Source: Isotricha intestinalis
Taxonomy: Eukaryota > Ciliophora > Litostomatea > Vestibuliferida > Isotrichidae
Assembly: GCA_023807065.1 (NCBI GenBank)
Contig: JAJJLU010000002.1
Location: forward strand, 1 to 64,000
Direction: 5' to 3'
Length of the DNA stretch: 64,000 bases
A model generated the notes under the pieces. It did not search any database, was not told where the DNA came from, and worked only from the letters and a program-made list of their open reading frames with translations. Of this stretch, positions 3,740 to 43,334 are shown piece after piece (position 1 is the stretch's first letter; each line of letters begins with the position of its first letter). Position numbers and translations under genes: made by a program.

Positions 3740-8680
<4,941 letters not shown>

Positions 8681-19295: not shown

Positions 19296-20430
19296 ATGTC
19301 AGAAAAAAAAGACAATAATCTCATTGAGATAAACAAAAAAAATTTAACAGAAAAAAAATTATATGATAAGAACGTAGAAGAATCAAAAGAAGTAAATGAA
19401 GAAACAACAGAAAATTTACTTTCTATAGATTTAATAAATCAAATAAATTTAAATTATGAAGATGAAAATTCTAATAATATAAATTTTAACATAAATCCTT
19501 TTAATAATAATGAAAAAGAATTAACAGATAATAATAGTAATAGTTCGGATAATGATTTAATGTTTGTTGAAAATGATATTCAAAATAATTTTAATCCTGA
19601 AAAAATAGATTTAACAGAATATTTAAAGCAACAAAGTTTACAAAATGATAATAATAATAATAATGATAATTTAAATTATTTTGAAGAAAATAAAGAGAAA
19701 GGAAAAAAAAATGTATATTCTCAAATGCAAACTACATTTAATTTAAATAATAATAAACCAATTCCAAGAGTTCCTTCAAATCCAATTCCAGCATCTTATT
19801 TAGGGAATTTTAAGATAAATAATAATATAGAAAATTCCTTAAATTCATTTGATTTTTATCAAAATAATTATAGTCATTCAAATAGTAATTTAAATTTAGG
19901 TAATATTATGTTTCCAAATAATTCTTTTTCAATGAATGGAAAATATGGATGGATTTGTTCAAATTGCGAAAATTTTAATTATGAAAGTAAAATATTTTTT
20001 ATTTAAATATTATTTAATTTATATAGTGAGAATTCAATGTAATAGATGTGGAAGAATTCAAAATCAAATGATGTTTAATTCAAATAATGGAAGTTCTCAT
20101 AGTTTAAATGAAAATAATTTTTTAAGAAATAGAATTATTAATATTCAAAATTTTCAAAATAATATAAATAAAAATAATATGTATAGAGATTTATTGTATA
20201 AAATGTCAAATATTAAATATAGTCATAGTTATTCTCCTAAAAATAAAAAAAATAATAACGAAAAAAAAAAGAAAAAACCTTTTGTTGAGAGAGAAGGAGA
20301 TTGGATATGTTATAATTGTGATAATTTAAATTTTGCTTTTAGAACCCAATGTAATAGATGTCATTTAGCTAAAAGTGATAATCCAAAAATTATTCAAAAA
20401 TTTATGAGTTATTATAATAATAATAATTAG
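19296..20430 (+). CDS. RanBP2-type zinc-finger protein, two exons
   Basis: Join of 19296-19986 and 20027-20430 (364 aa). The 40-bp intron 19987-20026 starts GTAAAA and ends ATATAG; unspliced, the frame stops at 20006. Removing it rebuilds a RanBP2 finger, W-x-C-x2-C-x3-N-x6-C-x2-C, as GWICSNCENFNYE joined to MRIQCNRCG. A second, uninterrupted finger lies near the C-terminus (GDWICYNCDNLNF followed by RTQCNRC). The N-terminal two thirds are Asn/Asp/Glu-rich and disordered. RanBP2 fingers bind single-stranded RNA or ubiquitin; paired fingers with Asn at the third conserved position suggest RNA binding. Repair of a known motif by splicing makes the intron reliable. Confidence 0.85.
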
Positions 20431-21998: not shown

Positions 21999-23216
21999 TA
22001 TTCCCTTTTTAATTTAATCAATATTTTAATTTTTTATAAATATTAATTAATTGTTTTAGAAAATAATGAAATAATCAATTTATTTATTGTTTATTTGAAA
22101 AAGTTTTAACTTAATTATTTTCAAATTGTTTTTAAACTTTTTTACAGACAAAATTAAGAAAAATTAAAAAATTCATTACAATTTTTAATCTTTTTGTATA
22201 AAAACAACTCAAAGAAATGTTCAATGAAATAATTTAAATTTCGTTTATTATTTTCATATTATTGAATATTCTTTGATAAATAATATAATATTTTATAAAA
22301 TAGTTCTTAAATTAAAATTGTCTTGTATATTAATTTTCTTTAAATTGAAATACATATAAAAGACATATTATCCATTGAAAATAATATTTATTGCTTCTTA
22401 ATTCATCTTTTTTTTAAGATAAAACAAATTTCATAGAACAATAGATTTGTGATTATATTAATATATATTTATAATATAAAAGGAAAGAAATTAAGAGATC
22501 ATGAACATATTATATTGAAAAGCTCAATTTATAAATATTAACCCACAAAGTTTATGTTACAAAATTTTATAATTATTTATATTAATATCAAAAAATTAGT
22601 ATAAATTACCCTAAATTTTAGATTTTCATTGAAATGTAATTCTTCGAATATTAAAGGAAAAGAAGGAAATTCGACTTTTTTTATTCCTTGTATTTTTCAA
22701 AATATTAATGAATAAAACATCAAAAAAACAAAAAATTTTTAAAATCTATAATAATACCCTAAATTTTAGATTTTCATTGAAATGTAATTCTTCGAATATT
22801 AAAGGAAAAGAAGGAAATTCGACTTTTTTTATTCCTTGTATTTTTCAAAATATTAATGAATAAAACATCAAAAAAACAAAAAATTTTTAAAATCTATAAT
22901 AATTATTAACATCAATTAAAAGAATTAACTTTTATTATTTATCATCAATTTAATTAAATGAATTTATAAATATTTTTGAAAAAAAAAATATTATTTTATT
23001 ATATATTATTCATAATTTAATTTTTAAAAATTTTTTTTTTGTATACCAGTAGTTAAAGTTATTAATGAATTTCTTCGGATGTAAAATTAAAAAGTATATC
23101 TATTTTATGTTTATGTCTTTAATATATTGTTAAATTTGATAAGAGATAATGTAAATATAAAAAATATATTTCAATTAAAAAGAAAGTGTTAAAATTTTAA
23201 TTATTTTCCAATAAAA
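21999..23216. other. Intergenic region with a tandem duplication
   Basis: About 1.2 kb upstream of both the 20640-21998 gene (minus) and the microexon gene (plus). It contains the perfect 148-bp tandem duplication at 22607-22902. Nothing else coding was recognised. In particular, no remnant of a protease domain is visible upstream of the microexon gene. Confidence 0.4.
22607..22902. repeat. 148-bp perfect tandem duplication
   Basis: Copy 1 is 22607-22754 and copy 2 is 22755-22902. Both begin TACCCTAAATTTTAG and run without visible difference to AAAATCTATAATAA. Perfect identity implies a recent event. The unit has slightly more G and C than its surroundings, including TTCTTCGAAT and GAAATTCGAC, but no coding frame or known RNA was recognised. 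Confidence 0.85.
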
Positions 23217-24144
23217 ATGAATGAATATAGTATTCAAAACTAAATAATATCTAGCAGATAATGATAATAAAAATGAAATTAATCAAAATAACCAATTAAA
23301 AGAATTTAAACCCATAGGAAAACAAAAACATTCTTTAGAGAAAAAGGAATTTGATTTATATTCTTATGAACAATTTAAAGAAAATAAATACTCTTGGTAA
23401 AAATTATTTTGGTAATAAAAAGTTTGTAAGAATTATTCTTAAAAATAGTAAGTAAAATAAAAATAAAAAAATATAGATGTGGGTATATAATAAAAACAAT
23501 ATCTTAGAGTGTAAGAGAAAAATTTAACAACATTACAGTATGTGAGAAATAAAATATAAAATTTTAGGGTGTATAATATCAAATTATAATATAGTCCGTA
23601 AAATAATAAAATAAAATTATTATAGTCGGTATGAATAAAAATAATATATTGAATGCAAGAAACAAAAAATGATATTATTATAGTTGGTATATATAAAAAG
23701 AAAATAATACTATATAGTTGGTAAAACATTAAATAATAATTCATAGTTCGTAGGAATTTAAATATGATAATAATTAGTTGGTAAAAAATACAATAATTAA
23801 TTTCAAGTGCGTAAATTTAATAATAAAAATAGTGTGTAAAAAAAAAAATAAAAAATAGACCGTAAAGAAACTTATAATATAGTATAGAGGGTAACTAATA
23901 AAATCTAAAAAAATAAGTTAGTAAGAAATAAAATAAAAATAATATAGTGGGTAATAATAAAATTATGAAAATAATCTAGTTAGTAAGAAAGAAAATAATA
24001 AATGTAGTTGGTCAAAATTATATTTTTATTTATAGTCCGTAATTTTATTTTTTATTTTTTAGAAAGTACTTTATTTATATAATATTAAGATGGTCTTAAG
24101 TTATTTTAATTCATAGCAAGTTTGATATTCATAATTTAATTTAA
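23217..24144 (+). CDS. Small zinc-ribbon protein encoded by a microexon chain
   Basis: Exon 1 is 23217-23229 (ATG at 23217) and intron 1 is 23230-23254 (25 bp, GTATTC...CTAG). Exon 2 is 23255-23396, followed by an array of 3-nt exons, then a 28-nt last exon 24117-24144 ending TAA. Microexon left ends are 23423, 23449, 23477 (6 nt), 23508, 23539, 23568, 23595, 23626, 23684, 23718, 23747, 23778, 23808, 23833, 23859, 23888, 23918, 23948, 23980, 24008, 24036, 24063 and 24090. The joined frame is open (84 aa). It contains PIG, then LYSYEQFKENKYS, then CFKCG, a Cys-rich middle and GYGYCPKCKFDI: a C-x2-C ... C-x2-C zinc-ribbon pattern. The same blocks occur at the end of the protease gene at 41146-43334. 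Function unknown. Confidence reflects in-silico splicing only. Confidence 0.78.
23397..24116 (+). other. Microexon array A: about 24 introns of 22-31 bp around 3-nt exons
   Basis: The motif AG-NNN-GTA recurs every 25-34 bp. Each unit begins GTAA, GTAT, GTGA, GTAG or GTC and ends AG, and the interior is almost pure A/T. Units differ from one another in sequence, so this is not a simple tandem repeat. All introns fall in phase 2, as the exon before the array ends with two bases of a codon (TG). One interval, 23629-23683, is 55 bp, twice the norm. It could hide one more exon (AAT at 23652-23654) if a TTG acceptor and a GC donor are allowed. At 23862-23887 an alternative acceptor exists at 23882. 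Confidence 0.8.
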
Positions 24145-25212
24145 TTATAGATATATATTCTATGTTAAATTAAATTAACTTTTTTGTGAAACATAAATAA
24201 TTTATTTTTGCTGGATTTTTAGATTTAATTCCTTAATAAAAAATAAAGTAAATAATAAAATTGCATCTTATTATCTTTTAATCATATTATCTTCAAATTA
24301 AACGTTTTAATGATAAAAAAATTTAATTCATTGTTAAATTATTTTTTTATATACTAAAAATTTTATTATATTTATTTTTATATTTTATGAAAAATTTTTT
24401 TATTTATTCTATAAATTAAATTTAAAATTCATTATTATAAAATTAAGAATTCAAAAAAAATTAATTTACAATCAAAAAATTTTTTATTTGAAAAATATAA
24501 TATTATTCACTCAATATTTATTAAAATATTCTCCAAATTAAAACAAAGAAAATACTTCAAATTCCAAATTTATTTATTTTATCAGATGAAAACAGTTTAT
24601 TTTTTAAAGATTTATAATTTTTAAATGATGATGAAAAGAAATTGATATCCTTTATATATCAAAACAAATCTTCTGATTTATTATACACTGTTATTTTTAT
24701 CGATTTTTTAAATAGAATTTTTTCATTCATTTAAAATTTGTTTTTGAATCTCAAACAAAATAAAAATTTAAAAATTCAAATTTGTTTATAAATAAAATTA
24801 AATGTGTGAATGAATTTAAAATTTTTTAAATGATAATATTTAAAAAAATTAAATTAATTAAAAAATATTGTTTACATTTAAACAAATTTTATAAGGTTTA
24901 TCTTAAGATTTAATGATTTAAATAAAATAATTTTAATAATATCAAATTCATCATTATTAAAAATTTACCGAATAAAAAAAATATTAAAAATTATTTCTTC
25001 AAACTTTTAAAAATAATTAATAAAAAAAAATAAAAAACATTAATCAATCAGAAACAAACAAAAAAATACTCAAAACTTTTATTTATTCTTTTCCTAGAAG
25101 CATTAAAATAATCTTTTTTATTCAAGAAAATAAAAGCTGAAAAGGAAAAAACCCAAAAAATAACAATAAACTTTTTAAAAAAAAAAAATAAAAAAAAATC
25201 ATTTAAAAAAAA
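24145..25212. other. Intergenic region with a possible coding remnant
   Basis: About 1.07 kb upstream of the Rab gene, strongly AT-rich. The only non-random stretch is 24561-24734, listed separately. The last ~150 bp before the Rab ATG are A-rich on the plus strand. Confidence 0.4.
24561..24734 (+). pseudogene. Possible decayed coding fragment
   Basis: One plus frame reads as plausible protein (IPNLFILSDENSLFFKDL, an in-frame TAA at 24615, then FLNDDEKKLISFIYQNKSSD and a hydrophobic end) to a stop at 24732. Codon choice matches neighbouring genes, but there is no start codon, and the length is within what chance can give in AT-rich DNA. No family recognised. Confidence 0.25.
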
Positions 25213-41145: not shown

Positions 41146-43334
41146 TCAATCTTTTTGTAGAAAAAATGAATATCTAAAAATAAACATAAATATTATACTC
41201 ACTATAATGAATATTATAAAATATTAACCATCTAAAAAAGGTAAAAAATAAGTTACTTTCTACAATTATAAATTATATTACGAACTAAATTGAGAAATAT
41301 AATTTACCATCTATTTTTTATTTATTTTTTTATACTTACTATTAAATATATTTCTTTTATGTTTTACCGACTAACATTATATTATTATACAAACTAATAT
41401 TAATCTTTTTATATTCTTTACGCACTATAATATAATAAAAAAACTAAAATTCAAACAGTCTATAATTTATATAATTAAATTTTTTTTACTTACTATATTA
41501 TTTTTATTTTAAGAATGACTTTCTGTGATTTTATTATATCTTTTACTTTCTGTAATATTATTATTTAATTCTAACTGTCTAAAATAGGATAATTTCCATA
41601 TATTTACAGACTAAATATTTAAATTTTATTTTATACAATCTATGATGTTTATTATTTTATTTCTGACTTACTATAAATAAAATTAAATTTATTTCTTACT
41701 AACTTTAAGAATATTATCAATTATTTCTTACAAACTATAATAATATTTGTTAATTTATTTCTAACGAACTAAATTATTTTTCTTCAATTTTCTTACAATC
41801 TAAAATATTATGAGTTCAAATTATACCCACTATTATATTAGTAAATTTATTACATTCTTATGAAATTTTTTTATTTTTTTCTTACGTTCTAAAAGAATAT
41901 TATTAATTAATTTTTACAAACTATAATCATTTCAATTCATATTTTACCGGCTATAATATTATTATTTATTTTATACTTCCTAAAATTTTTAATTTCTTAT
42001 TTACAGACTAGATATTTTATTTTTTTTTTTACTCACTGAAGAAATTATAATTTTTACTTACGGCCTAAATATAATTCTTATTAATGTTTTACTCACTAAT
42101 AAATCATTAATTTATTATTTACTCTCTTAAATAAATTTTATTTATTTTTACAGACTGTAATATTATTATCTTTTTTATTACTAACTTTTATATAATCAAT
42201 TATTATTTTTTACAGTCTGAAAATCAATATTAATAAATTTTTACAGTCTATAATATTTTTCATTTTTATTAATTACGAACTTAATAATTTATTTTTTTTT
42301 ACTTCCTATATAAATATTATAATATTGATATTTCTTACCCACAACAATTATTTTTTATTTTTTTTATTTACTTACTATATTTTATTGTTAATCCTTACAA
42401 ACTTTTATTATTTAGTATCTTACCAAAATTCTTTATTTTCTTCAAATTGATCTTCTTCATATAAAGGATAATCTTTATTATTATATTCATAACTTCCAAT
42501 TGGTTGAAATTTTATGGTTTTGCTTTTTTTAAAAATCTTTCTGGGATCTTTGTCTTCTTTTTTTGTGTTCATCATTAAATTAGTTCTATAAAAATCAGCA
42601 GGATTATTAGAAAGTCTTCTTTCACTTAATATTTTTTTTTTTTCTTTATAATTAAAAAATTGTTTTTCAATATCTTCAATAATATGTTTCATTAAAATTC
42701 CTTTGTTTAAATTTTTCTCTTTTCCACAATGAATACCAATAATTTTTAAATTTCTTGTATCTAAACATATAGGAGAACCAGAAGAACCACTTTCAGTACT
42801 AATTGAATGAATTATTTGATATTCATTTTGAATTTTATTTAAATATCCTTCTGCAAATGAAACTCCATTTCCTCCTGGATTTTGTATAATAACAAATTCA
42901 TCATTTATATATTCTTCTTCTGGATTATCAATATCAATATTTTTTTCTACTTTAAAAAAATTATTAAAATTATCTTTATCTAATATTTCAATTGCTGTGT
43001 AATCATATTTTAAACTTGTGCTAAAAAATCTATTTTTAGGATTTATTTCTTTTATTTCTTTTTCATATTCTATTTTTATTGGTGAATCTTTTTTGTCTAT
43101 AATATGATTATTTGTAAATAGAAATTTCATTAATTCAATTTTTTTGTCAAAATTATTTCTTATTTTTAATTCACAAAAAAAACCAGTTCCACTTGTTTCA
43201 TTAACCATTATTTTACAAATTGCAGAAAATTTTTTTTTATATCTTTCAACTGCTCTTGCATTTATTGGTTTTTGGTTATTGATAATTAATTCTGGTTTAA
43301 AATTATTTTGTTTGTTTTTCTTCATTTTTTTCAA
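41146..43334 (-). CDS. Trypsin-like peptidase with zinc-ribbon tail encoded by 41 microexons
   Basis: Exon 1 is 43334-42424 (303 codons plus two bases). It carries a trypsin-like/HtrA-type peptidase with a plausible triad: His77 in FLFTNNHII, Asp111 in KYDYTAIEI and Ser185 in SGSSGSP. A basic linker and PIG ... LYEEDQFEENKEF follow. Left unspliced, the frame stops at once (TGG TAA, 42420-42425). With the array of microexons and the last exon 41173-41146 (28 nt, stop TGA), the product is 354 aa. Its tail begins CFNCG and ends RKCSKCEYSFFLQKD: C-x2-C, 34 residues, C-x2-C. Only the reading phase set by exon 1 is open through the array; the other two meet stops. No signal peptide is seen, so it is probably cytosolic. 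Substrate unknown. Confidence 0.85.
41174..42423 (-). other. Microexon array B: 42 introns of 20-33 bp around 3-nt exons
   Basis: Read on the minus strand, AG-NNN-GT(A/T/C) recurs about every 30 bp. Left ends of the microexons, 5' to 3', are 42399, 42372, 42339 (6 nt), 42303, 42277, 42245, 42214, 42182, 42152, 42123, 42093, 42062, 42033, 42005, 41977, 41948, 41918, 41886, 41854, 41827, 41797, 41766, 41732, 41700, 41668, 41637, 41608, 41576, 41547, 41520, 41490, 41457, 41422, 41391, 41368, 41336, 41308, 41282, 41257, 41229 and 41199. The shortest intron is 20 bp (41371-41390). Most donors are GTAA; GTAT, GTTA, GTCA and GTTT also occur. All acceptors are AG except the one before the 6-nt exon, which reads TTG. 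Every intron is phase 2. Introns are nearly pure A/T; the exons are visibly richer in G and C. Confidence 0.85.

Follow-up and report, generated by a model that had tools for sequence, protein, structure and literature searches.

Spliceosomal introns far below the usual length are known from ciliates, having been described, in the accessible parts of the respective reports, in Stentor (PMC9505925) and Nyctotherus (PMC2633312). The introns considered here are likewise tiny and likewise come from a ciliate, but they follow one another serially, up to 108 at a time, with single codons between them. We know of no series of tiny introns in Stentor or Nyctotherus. Among genes built of tiny exons, the micro-exon genes of Schistosoma have, in the available text of the source, exons of 6-81 bp (3-81 in its abstract), mostly of 15 bp, with 10-20 of them per gene and introns of 0.1-5 kb (PMC10526429); like the present genes, they string many tiny exons together in a single gene, most with a length divisible by three, whereas here the exons are of 3 nt and as many as 107, and the introns, at about 28 nt, are short where those of Schistosoma are long. 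Exons of 3 nt are also present in the duplicated lipS genes of the fungus Dactylellina, yet there, as far as the accessible text goes, they number two per gene (PMC5639578), as against the series found here. The aphid bicycle genes, in the portion of the report at hand, are likewise a gene family recognised by exon structure (PMC9168663). Their proteins are unrelated to those encoded by the arrays. The exons of bicycle genes are small, yet larger than single codons. As regards the introns themselves, introners occur as many near-identical copies per genome (PMC9860276), as the introns do here, and tandem duplication has been described as a source of introns (PMC4974935), as it possibly was here, both according to the available portions of these papers; unlike in either system, the intron copies in the arrays lie one codon apart, inside one domain. 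There are precedents for tiny introns, for micro-exon genes and for 3-nt exons in isolation; 40 to 107 serial one-codon exons represent the extreme end, of which no report was found among the best matches in the open-licence PMC literature; an earlier note on this DNA had likewise taken a run of about 40 to be undescribed.

The DNA analysed, hereafter the window, is a stretch of 64,000 nucleotides that begins with six AATCCCC repeats, as L054 and L092 also do. The repeat (CCCCAAT)n forms the telomeres of Entodinium caudatum (PMC6211341) and, in the accessible text of the respective papers, those of Balantidium ctenopharyngodoni (PMC10978948) and of Muniziella cunhai, which uses the standard code (PMC11316547). 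The GC content is 18%, and the window has 23 ORFs of at least 120 aa, its long ORFs being in the standard code, without reassigned stops. Judging by the telomere repeat, the GC content and the standard-code ORFs, the 57.3-Mb assembly is very likely macronuclear and derived from a trichostome ciliate. By eye, the window also contains a large ubiquitin fusion (a 1635-aa ORF with a complete C-terminal ubiquitin at 3740-8647, minus strand) and an apparent 40-nt intron (19987-20026) inside a RanBP2-type-like zinc finger; a search for ordinary introns yields 4 GT-AG candidates, about as many as controls do (3-4).

Gene A lies on the minus strand of the window, as do all its parts. Its exon 1 (42424..43325, 902 nt), defined by ORF, Pfam match and phase, codes for a Trypsin_2-like peptidase with the tail ..KFQPIGSYEYNNKDYPLYEEDQFEENKEF and ends in phase 2 (TG-GT); the match to PF13365 (Trypsin_2) reaches 29.2 bits at a gathering cut-off of 27.6. 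Downstream of it, array A (41174..42423; first donor 42423, last acceptor 41174), as traced by its AG-NNN-GT chain and by parsing, has 41 microexons set between 42 introns and codes for CFNCGNSLLYLDEPDLNRLTIGFSFYKFLQKNKLAFRKCSKC; of the microexons, 40 are 3 nt long and one is 6 nt long, exactly as counted in the note. The last exon (41146..41173) reads ..EYSFFLQKD and ends with the stop TGA (41148-41146). With regard to the introns, the claimed lengths of 20-33 nt (mean 26.8) and GT starts hold throughout, but AG ends do not: intron 3 (42345..42371, GTAAATAAAAAAAATAAAAAATAATTG) has the non-canonical acceptor TTG, because of which the count of 42 needs one hand-set non-AG acceptor, an AG-requiring parse giving 41 introns. 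Nor are the introns nearly pure A/T, as had been stated; their measured A/T content is about 86%. Next to intron 3 lies the 6-nt microexon TTGTGG (42339..42344), which codes for the second Cys and the Gly of the motif CFxCG, and whose counterpart is ATGTGG in L010, L012, L017, L019, L025 and array B. If intron 3 were unused, the 6-nt exon would be dropped or part of the intron retained; the TTG acceptor may mean that this exon is skipped or that non-canonical splicing is required.

When gene A is joined in the phase of exon 1, the first stop is reached only after FRKCSKCEYSFFLQKD, in the reading ..EENKEFCFNCGNSLLYLDEPDLNRLTIGFSFYKFLQKNKLAFRKCSKCEYSFFLQKD; thus the frame is open, as claimed, up to the gene's own TGA, and the stops claimed for the other two phases are there as well (7 and 3 in the microexon string). 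The strict AG-NNN-GT chain has 38 members in array A, whereas none of twenty Markov sequences of 64 kb yields a chain of more than 3, and a parser in which exon length is free up to 40 nt gives array A a score of 134.9, the best score in ten 64-kb Markov sequences being 16.9. At a score cut-off of 28, this parser detects A and B as the sole arrays of the window; elsewhere in the genome, the U2 locus, seven Rab loci and eight interior stretches of 5 kb each (40 kb for these eight) contain none. The match to the double zinc ribbon (PF12773) stays, at 14.7 bits, below the gathering cut-off of 27.3, and the likeness consists in the spacing of the Cys pairs only.

Array A is one of a class rather than a single curiosity, and a homologous array, B, absent from the earlier note, lies in the same window. 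Gene B, on the plus strand, has a predicted exon 1 (23217..23229, MNEY..), deduced from the frame that stays open over a putative ordinary intron of 25 nt (23230..23254, GTATTC...CTAG), and an exon 2 (23255..23396) with a tail homologous to that of gene A (..KPIGKQKHSLEKKEFDLYSYEQFKENKYS). It is followed by array B (23397..24150), which codes for CFKCGVMVPRCCSCAVPGYGYCPKC. Its 25 introns include one of 55 nt, and its 24 microexons comprise 23 of 3 nt and a single one of 6 nt; the last exon (24151..24178) reads ..KYIFYVKLN before the stop TAA, and the spliced end of the gene is YSCFKCGVMVPRCCSCAVPGYGYCPKCKYIFYVKLN. Both arrays open with TG-TTT-TAA-(A/T)TGTGG and close on CxxC-x-Y-x-F. Upstream of gene B, at 22600-22903, a 148-bp unit is tandemly duplicated with 98% identity.

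In the genome as a whole, 36 stretches on 32 contigs score above 28, making 34 arrays once C453 and C661, which the parser split, are counted singly; these counts exclude four low-scoring stretches (L079, L083, L085, L089). The 36 stretches add up to 1114 introns and 966 3-nt exons. In the longest array, C1893, behind an exon that exceeds the Trypsin_2 (PF13365) gathering score with 30.3 bits, 108 introns separate 107 exons, every one of 3 nt. In 20 arrays parsed with exon length left free, 656 of 740 exons are of 3 nt; many of the others are of 6 nt or of 26-37 nt, the latter mostly being units with a splice site that the parser rejected. Exon 1 of gene A, used as a query, gave 55 matches in the genome at E ≤10, itself and split pieces included, and AG-NNN-GT chains of at least four members were present at 13 of the 30 loci returned; further arrays were reached through the 15 matches of the tail and the 136 matches of the L054 array DNA. 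In 15 of 18 weaker stretches, the 3-nt exons number four or more, and the other 3 have none; 11 of the 18 scored above 28. A single frame open from end to end emerged from machine parsing only for C1893, L011, L054 and, up to the last intron, L025, while for A, B, L013 and L033 this took a simpler parser or sites placed by hand; the arrays L016, L018, L024, L055, L067-L069 and L072 were not parsed end to end. A contig end is found within 5 kb of 27 of the 36 stretches (49% expected) and within 2 kb of 24 (20% expected), and in L054 the array gene stops some 340 bases short of telomere repeats; a subtelomeric location is only suggested by this, since repeats break assemblies too and several contigs end inside arrays. 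Array-free paralogs, with the same peptidase fused to other domains, were seen by eye at L015, L021, L023 and L036; the partner is Hsp70-like in L021 and consists of PF03382-like repeats in the other three, and PF03382 is also annotated on relatives of gene A, e.g. P0055.

The coding signal was assessed in the phase set by exon 1, which is phase 2 in the TG-GT family and in C1893, and phase 0 where a first exon of 1 nt (L013, L033, L067, L068, L072) or 10 nt (L069) follows; the second intron of L033 was also set by hand, and in L012, L018, L019 and L054, where the parser took another first donor, phase 2 was assigned by homology. Within runs of 3-nt exons, to which the stop counts apply, 20 arrays have 0 in-phase stops in 612 codons, as compared with 131 in 1194 codons of the other two phases. 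In L013, L033, L067, L068 and L072, the 1-nt exon (A) seems to be required before the first 3-nt exon for the phase to be open. Shuffling the letters of the microexons in 11 arrays, with the phase of L070 and L071 taken by homology, predicts about 30 in-phase stops, whereas 0 were observed in 388 codons; for single arrays, P ≤0.05 is attained only by A (0.033), C1893, L071 and L033, and short arrays give weak values (B 0.35, L025 0.48, L017 0.77). Each of the 14 arrays of unassigned phase (L070 and L071 included) has at least one stop-free phase, as is expected by chance for the short ones. Shuffling the order of the microexons proved a poor control, because every exon retains its own constraint, and was replaced by the phase comparison and the letter shuffles.

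In C1893, 107 codons contain 0 stops in phase 2 but 5 and 18 in the other phases, the reading KVKKTDQSGEELNKLMKEREELEKKNETVRKELEKLKKALAEL.. is followed by a stop directly after the array, and the microexons have 41% GC compared with 8% in the introns. In its first 50 residues, hydrophobic residues recur with a period of 3.5 (P 0.0002), which the second half does not show (P 0.29); for the whole, P is 0.012. The array part has no Pfam match above cut-off, and an uninterrupted version of this coil was found neither in the same genome (best E 0.58) nor in the protein collection; in the PDB, the best match (E 0.021) is FOSW, which we take to be a leucine zipper. Over the 20 arrays, with the open phase used for three of them, microexon residues are richer than the window ORFs in W (2.8 vs 0.6%), C (5.4 vs 1.0%) and G (7.7 vs 2.8%). 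The array peptides of L075 and L082, read in the open phase, look like binding loops, with a very high content of Trp, Tyr and Gly, as in YKWGYEGYGWWKWIWKYG.

Five paralogous arrays keep the zinc-ribbon ends CFxCG ... CxxC-x-Y-x-F, in agreement with the second C-x2-C that had been noticed at the end of array A. In the five spliced tails, those of L010 and L025 being read partly by hand, 15 columns are invariant, 7 of them in exon 1 and 2 in the last exon; the remaining 6, wholly or partly microexon-coded, are both Cys pairs, the Phe and the Gly. The loop between the Cys ends, in turn, varies widely in length. In L010, the frame is lost when every unit is spliced strictly, the AT-AG unit and two apparent 1-nt exons included. 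A second type of zinc ribbon, ..WEL(R/K)-C-x2-C-x-Y-x-F-W.., occurs in L013 and L072; the proteins P0003 and P0032 run uninterrupted into KWKCPICSC..NNPICSICGN and may be an uninterrupted relative of that type.

Gene A has 862 relatives in 5.8 billion proteins. Among the best 120 of the 862, 43 relatives have at least 290 aa, of which 31 end in W, a residue that would result from exon 1 being read into GTAA. Their tails resemble ..YDLYSEEQFEENKxCW; with such tails, the boundary between exon 1 and the array seems to be old and common in the peptidase family. Only exon-1 pieces, and no spliced form of full-length A, were present among these best 120, and a profile of the five spliced tails retrieved 4 proteins from the collection, all of them exon-1 pieces running into the first intron. 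A single-sequence query of viral and prokaryote contigs, which reaches close relatives only, returned no relatives.

These observations have to be confronted with the view that the arrays do not code at all and are instead a degenerate AT-rich tandem repeat or a pseudogene tail in which AG-NNN-GT occurs by accident, or one big intron taken out as a whole. Such a view could draw on the near-identical introns repeated within several arrays, on the damaged splice sites of some units and on the proximity of 27 of the 36 stretches to contig ends; however, it is at odds with the lack of stops in all 612 in-phase codons, with the Cys, Phe and Gly kept at the ends of five paralogous arrays, with the GC contrast in C1893 and with the several-fold enrichment of W and C, and a single join of 42423 to 41173 would drop the zinc ribbon that the paralogs retain. 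We consider it highly improbable.

The machinery for splicing is encoded in the genome: a U1 gene (72.6 bits, cut-off 69.5; 5' end ..ACTTACCTG), a U2 gene (146.3 bits) and two copies of U6 (108 bits) were detected, the search for U12 being silent and uninformative. The array donors match the 5' end of U1. With a parser that admits only GT, AT and GC donors and demands AG, 766 introns in 17 arrays have 730 GT, 30 AT and 6 GC donors; in the 20 arrays, the introns have a median length of 28 nt and are 89% A/T. Of 30 units that lack GT but have 3-nt flanks and an AG end, 21 start with AT, and 15 of these 21 with ATAAG, compared with GTAAG in 96 of 546 GT donors of the same arrays (P 2e-7). Such an excess of ATAAG would be expected of splice sites that are compensated and functional; the indication is indirect, some of these arrays being GTAAG-rich anyway. 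Units of the AT-AG kind with ATAAG donors recur in L010, L013, L016, L018 and L067-L069, along with GC-AG and a few GT-TG units. Some units in other arrays are without GT or AG, and therefore some array copies may be decaying.

Since the organism is a ciliate, as marked by the telomere repeat, one has also to ask whether the AT-rich elements are IESs that are cut out of the DNA, the assembly then being of germline DNA. The IESs of Paramecium include lengths such as these, and the elements fall within their range. Their borders, though, are GT..AG and not TA..TA, and their donors fit the U1 5' end; TA-to-TA excision in C1893, the sole array tested, leaves 37-38 stops per 253 codons in every frame; and the 23 window ORFs of at least 120 aa, together with telomere repeats on contigs, fit a macronuclear assembly. 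The probability of this alternative appears very low.

We are therefore confident that these are real spliceosomal microexon arrays in a trichostome macronucleus, in many cases placed behind Trypsin_2 exons. Among the readings that we found, microexon arrays alone account jointly for the phase, the borders, the conservation and the recurrence, although 3-nt exons between 27-nt introns leave scant room for the spliceosome. The earlier proposal of a microexon array, putatively functional, with an intron at almost every codon thus gains support from the phase, the zinc-ribbon ends kept among paralogs and the spliceosomal RNAs. Array A would form part of the 3' portion of a protein-coding gene. 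In gene A, the peptidase and the conserved tail are coded by exon 1, and the zinc-ribbon domain would then be split over 41 microexons, 40 of them of three bases, with U2-type introns of about 27 nt in between. The ordinary spliceosome, working by intron definition, would excise the 42 introns from the transcript and restore one frame; the introns removed in this way would be tiny GT-AG ones, with some AT-AG, GC-AG and possibly GT-TG. Since every unit contributes three bases of coding sequence and no more, a unit could be gained, lost or skipped with the frame intact, the protein becoming longer or shorter by one residue; this would account for the 3-nt rule, for damaged splice sites being tolerated and for the variable loops with fixed, presumably zinc-binding Cys ends. 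The benefit would be the diversification of a variable loop. On the best reading, the arrays code for zinc-ribbon loops or a coiled coil, and their length changes by whole codon-plus-intron units.

A change of this kind is seen between L017 and L025. Over 947 bases, the two differ in nothing but a single block of 72 bases, present in L025, that corresponds to exactly two units (CCC, TCC) and is flanked by two copies of one intron; hence the arrays change by whole units, and recombination between equal introns, in either direction, would be a source of the difference. In the arrays, which this comparison covered, near-identical introns occur at many loci, within and between paralogous arrays, as in introners. 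One 28-nt intron is found 13 times in L013, and one 33-nt intron is common to L016, with 5 copies, and L054, with 3. In L013, L016, L020, L025 and L054, the introns are pairwise 71-83% identical (59-64% after letter shuffling), while the 3-nt exons are 36-45% identical, just as in arrays with diverged introns. In 52 unit pairs with identical introns, from 8 arrays, the next codon is shared in 21% and the previous one in 17%; in 487 pairs whose introns show over 8 differences, the respective values are 4% and 7%. With near-identical introns but mostly different codons in recently expanded arrays, introns and codons evolve largely apart, and the small share of common history reflects either copying or homogenisation of introns or very fast divergence of codons.

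Two routes to this state can be envisaged. In the first, intron-plus-codon units were duplicated in tandem and strong diversifying selection then acted on the codons, with no insertion of introns. The exon lengths in multiples of three, as frame-safe duplication demands, the exact two-unit difference between L017 and L025 with copies of one intron at its flanks, the next codon shared in 21% as against 4% of pairs, and the excess of equal neighbouring exons over shuffles in L054 (P 0.006) all speak for it; on the other hand, copies with unchanged introns of 28-33 nt would be expected to keep most codons unchanged, yet the next codon differs in 79% and the previous one in 83% of the 52 identical-intron pairs, and 15 of 16 arrays have no excess of equal neighbours at P 0.05. 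We give this route a little under an even chance. In the second, intron sequence was copied or homogenised, in the manner of introners, between codons that were already there, as the repeated 28-nt and 33-nt introns of L013, L016 and L054 suggest, as does the hydrophobic period in the first 50 residues of C1893, which is unlike a random codon string. However, free insertion requires no particular codon spacing, whereas exons of 3 nt are found nearly everywhere, and no uninterrupted C1893 coil turned up in the genome or in the protein collection; we give the second route a chance only slightly smaller than the first.

If microexon arrays are indeed a dedicated device for protein variation, every residue of a zinc-ribbon loop would be a cassette open to duplication, loss, swapping or skipping with the frame intact, hypervariable recognition loops of the peptidases would be the benefit, perhaps with codon-by-codon variation of the loops by splicing as well, and the introns would spread independently; at present we regard this as a rather unlikely, speculative extension of the sequence data. 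Such arrays would probably escape the gene finders and RNA aligners in common use, as may be seen from the 31 of 43 longer relatives, among the best 120 of 862, that end in W. The largely uncoupled divergence of introns and codons offers a natural test of intron multiplication. The arrays would stretch the known limits on how finely genes can be split: if they are spliced as read here, the lower limit of an exon is one codon, sustained over more than 100 consecutive exons, and the limits of intron definition and of spliceosome packing would become directly testable.
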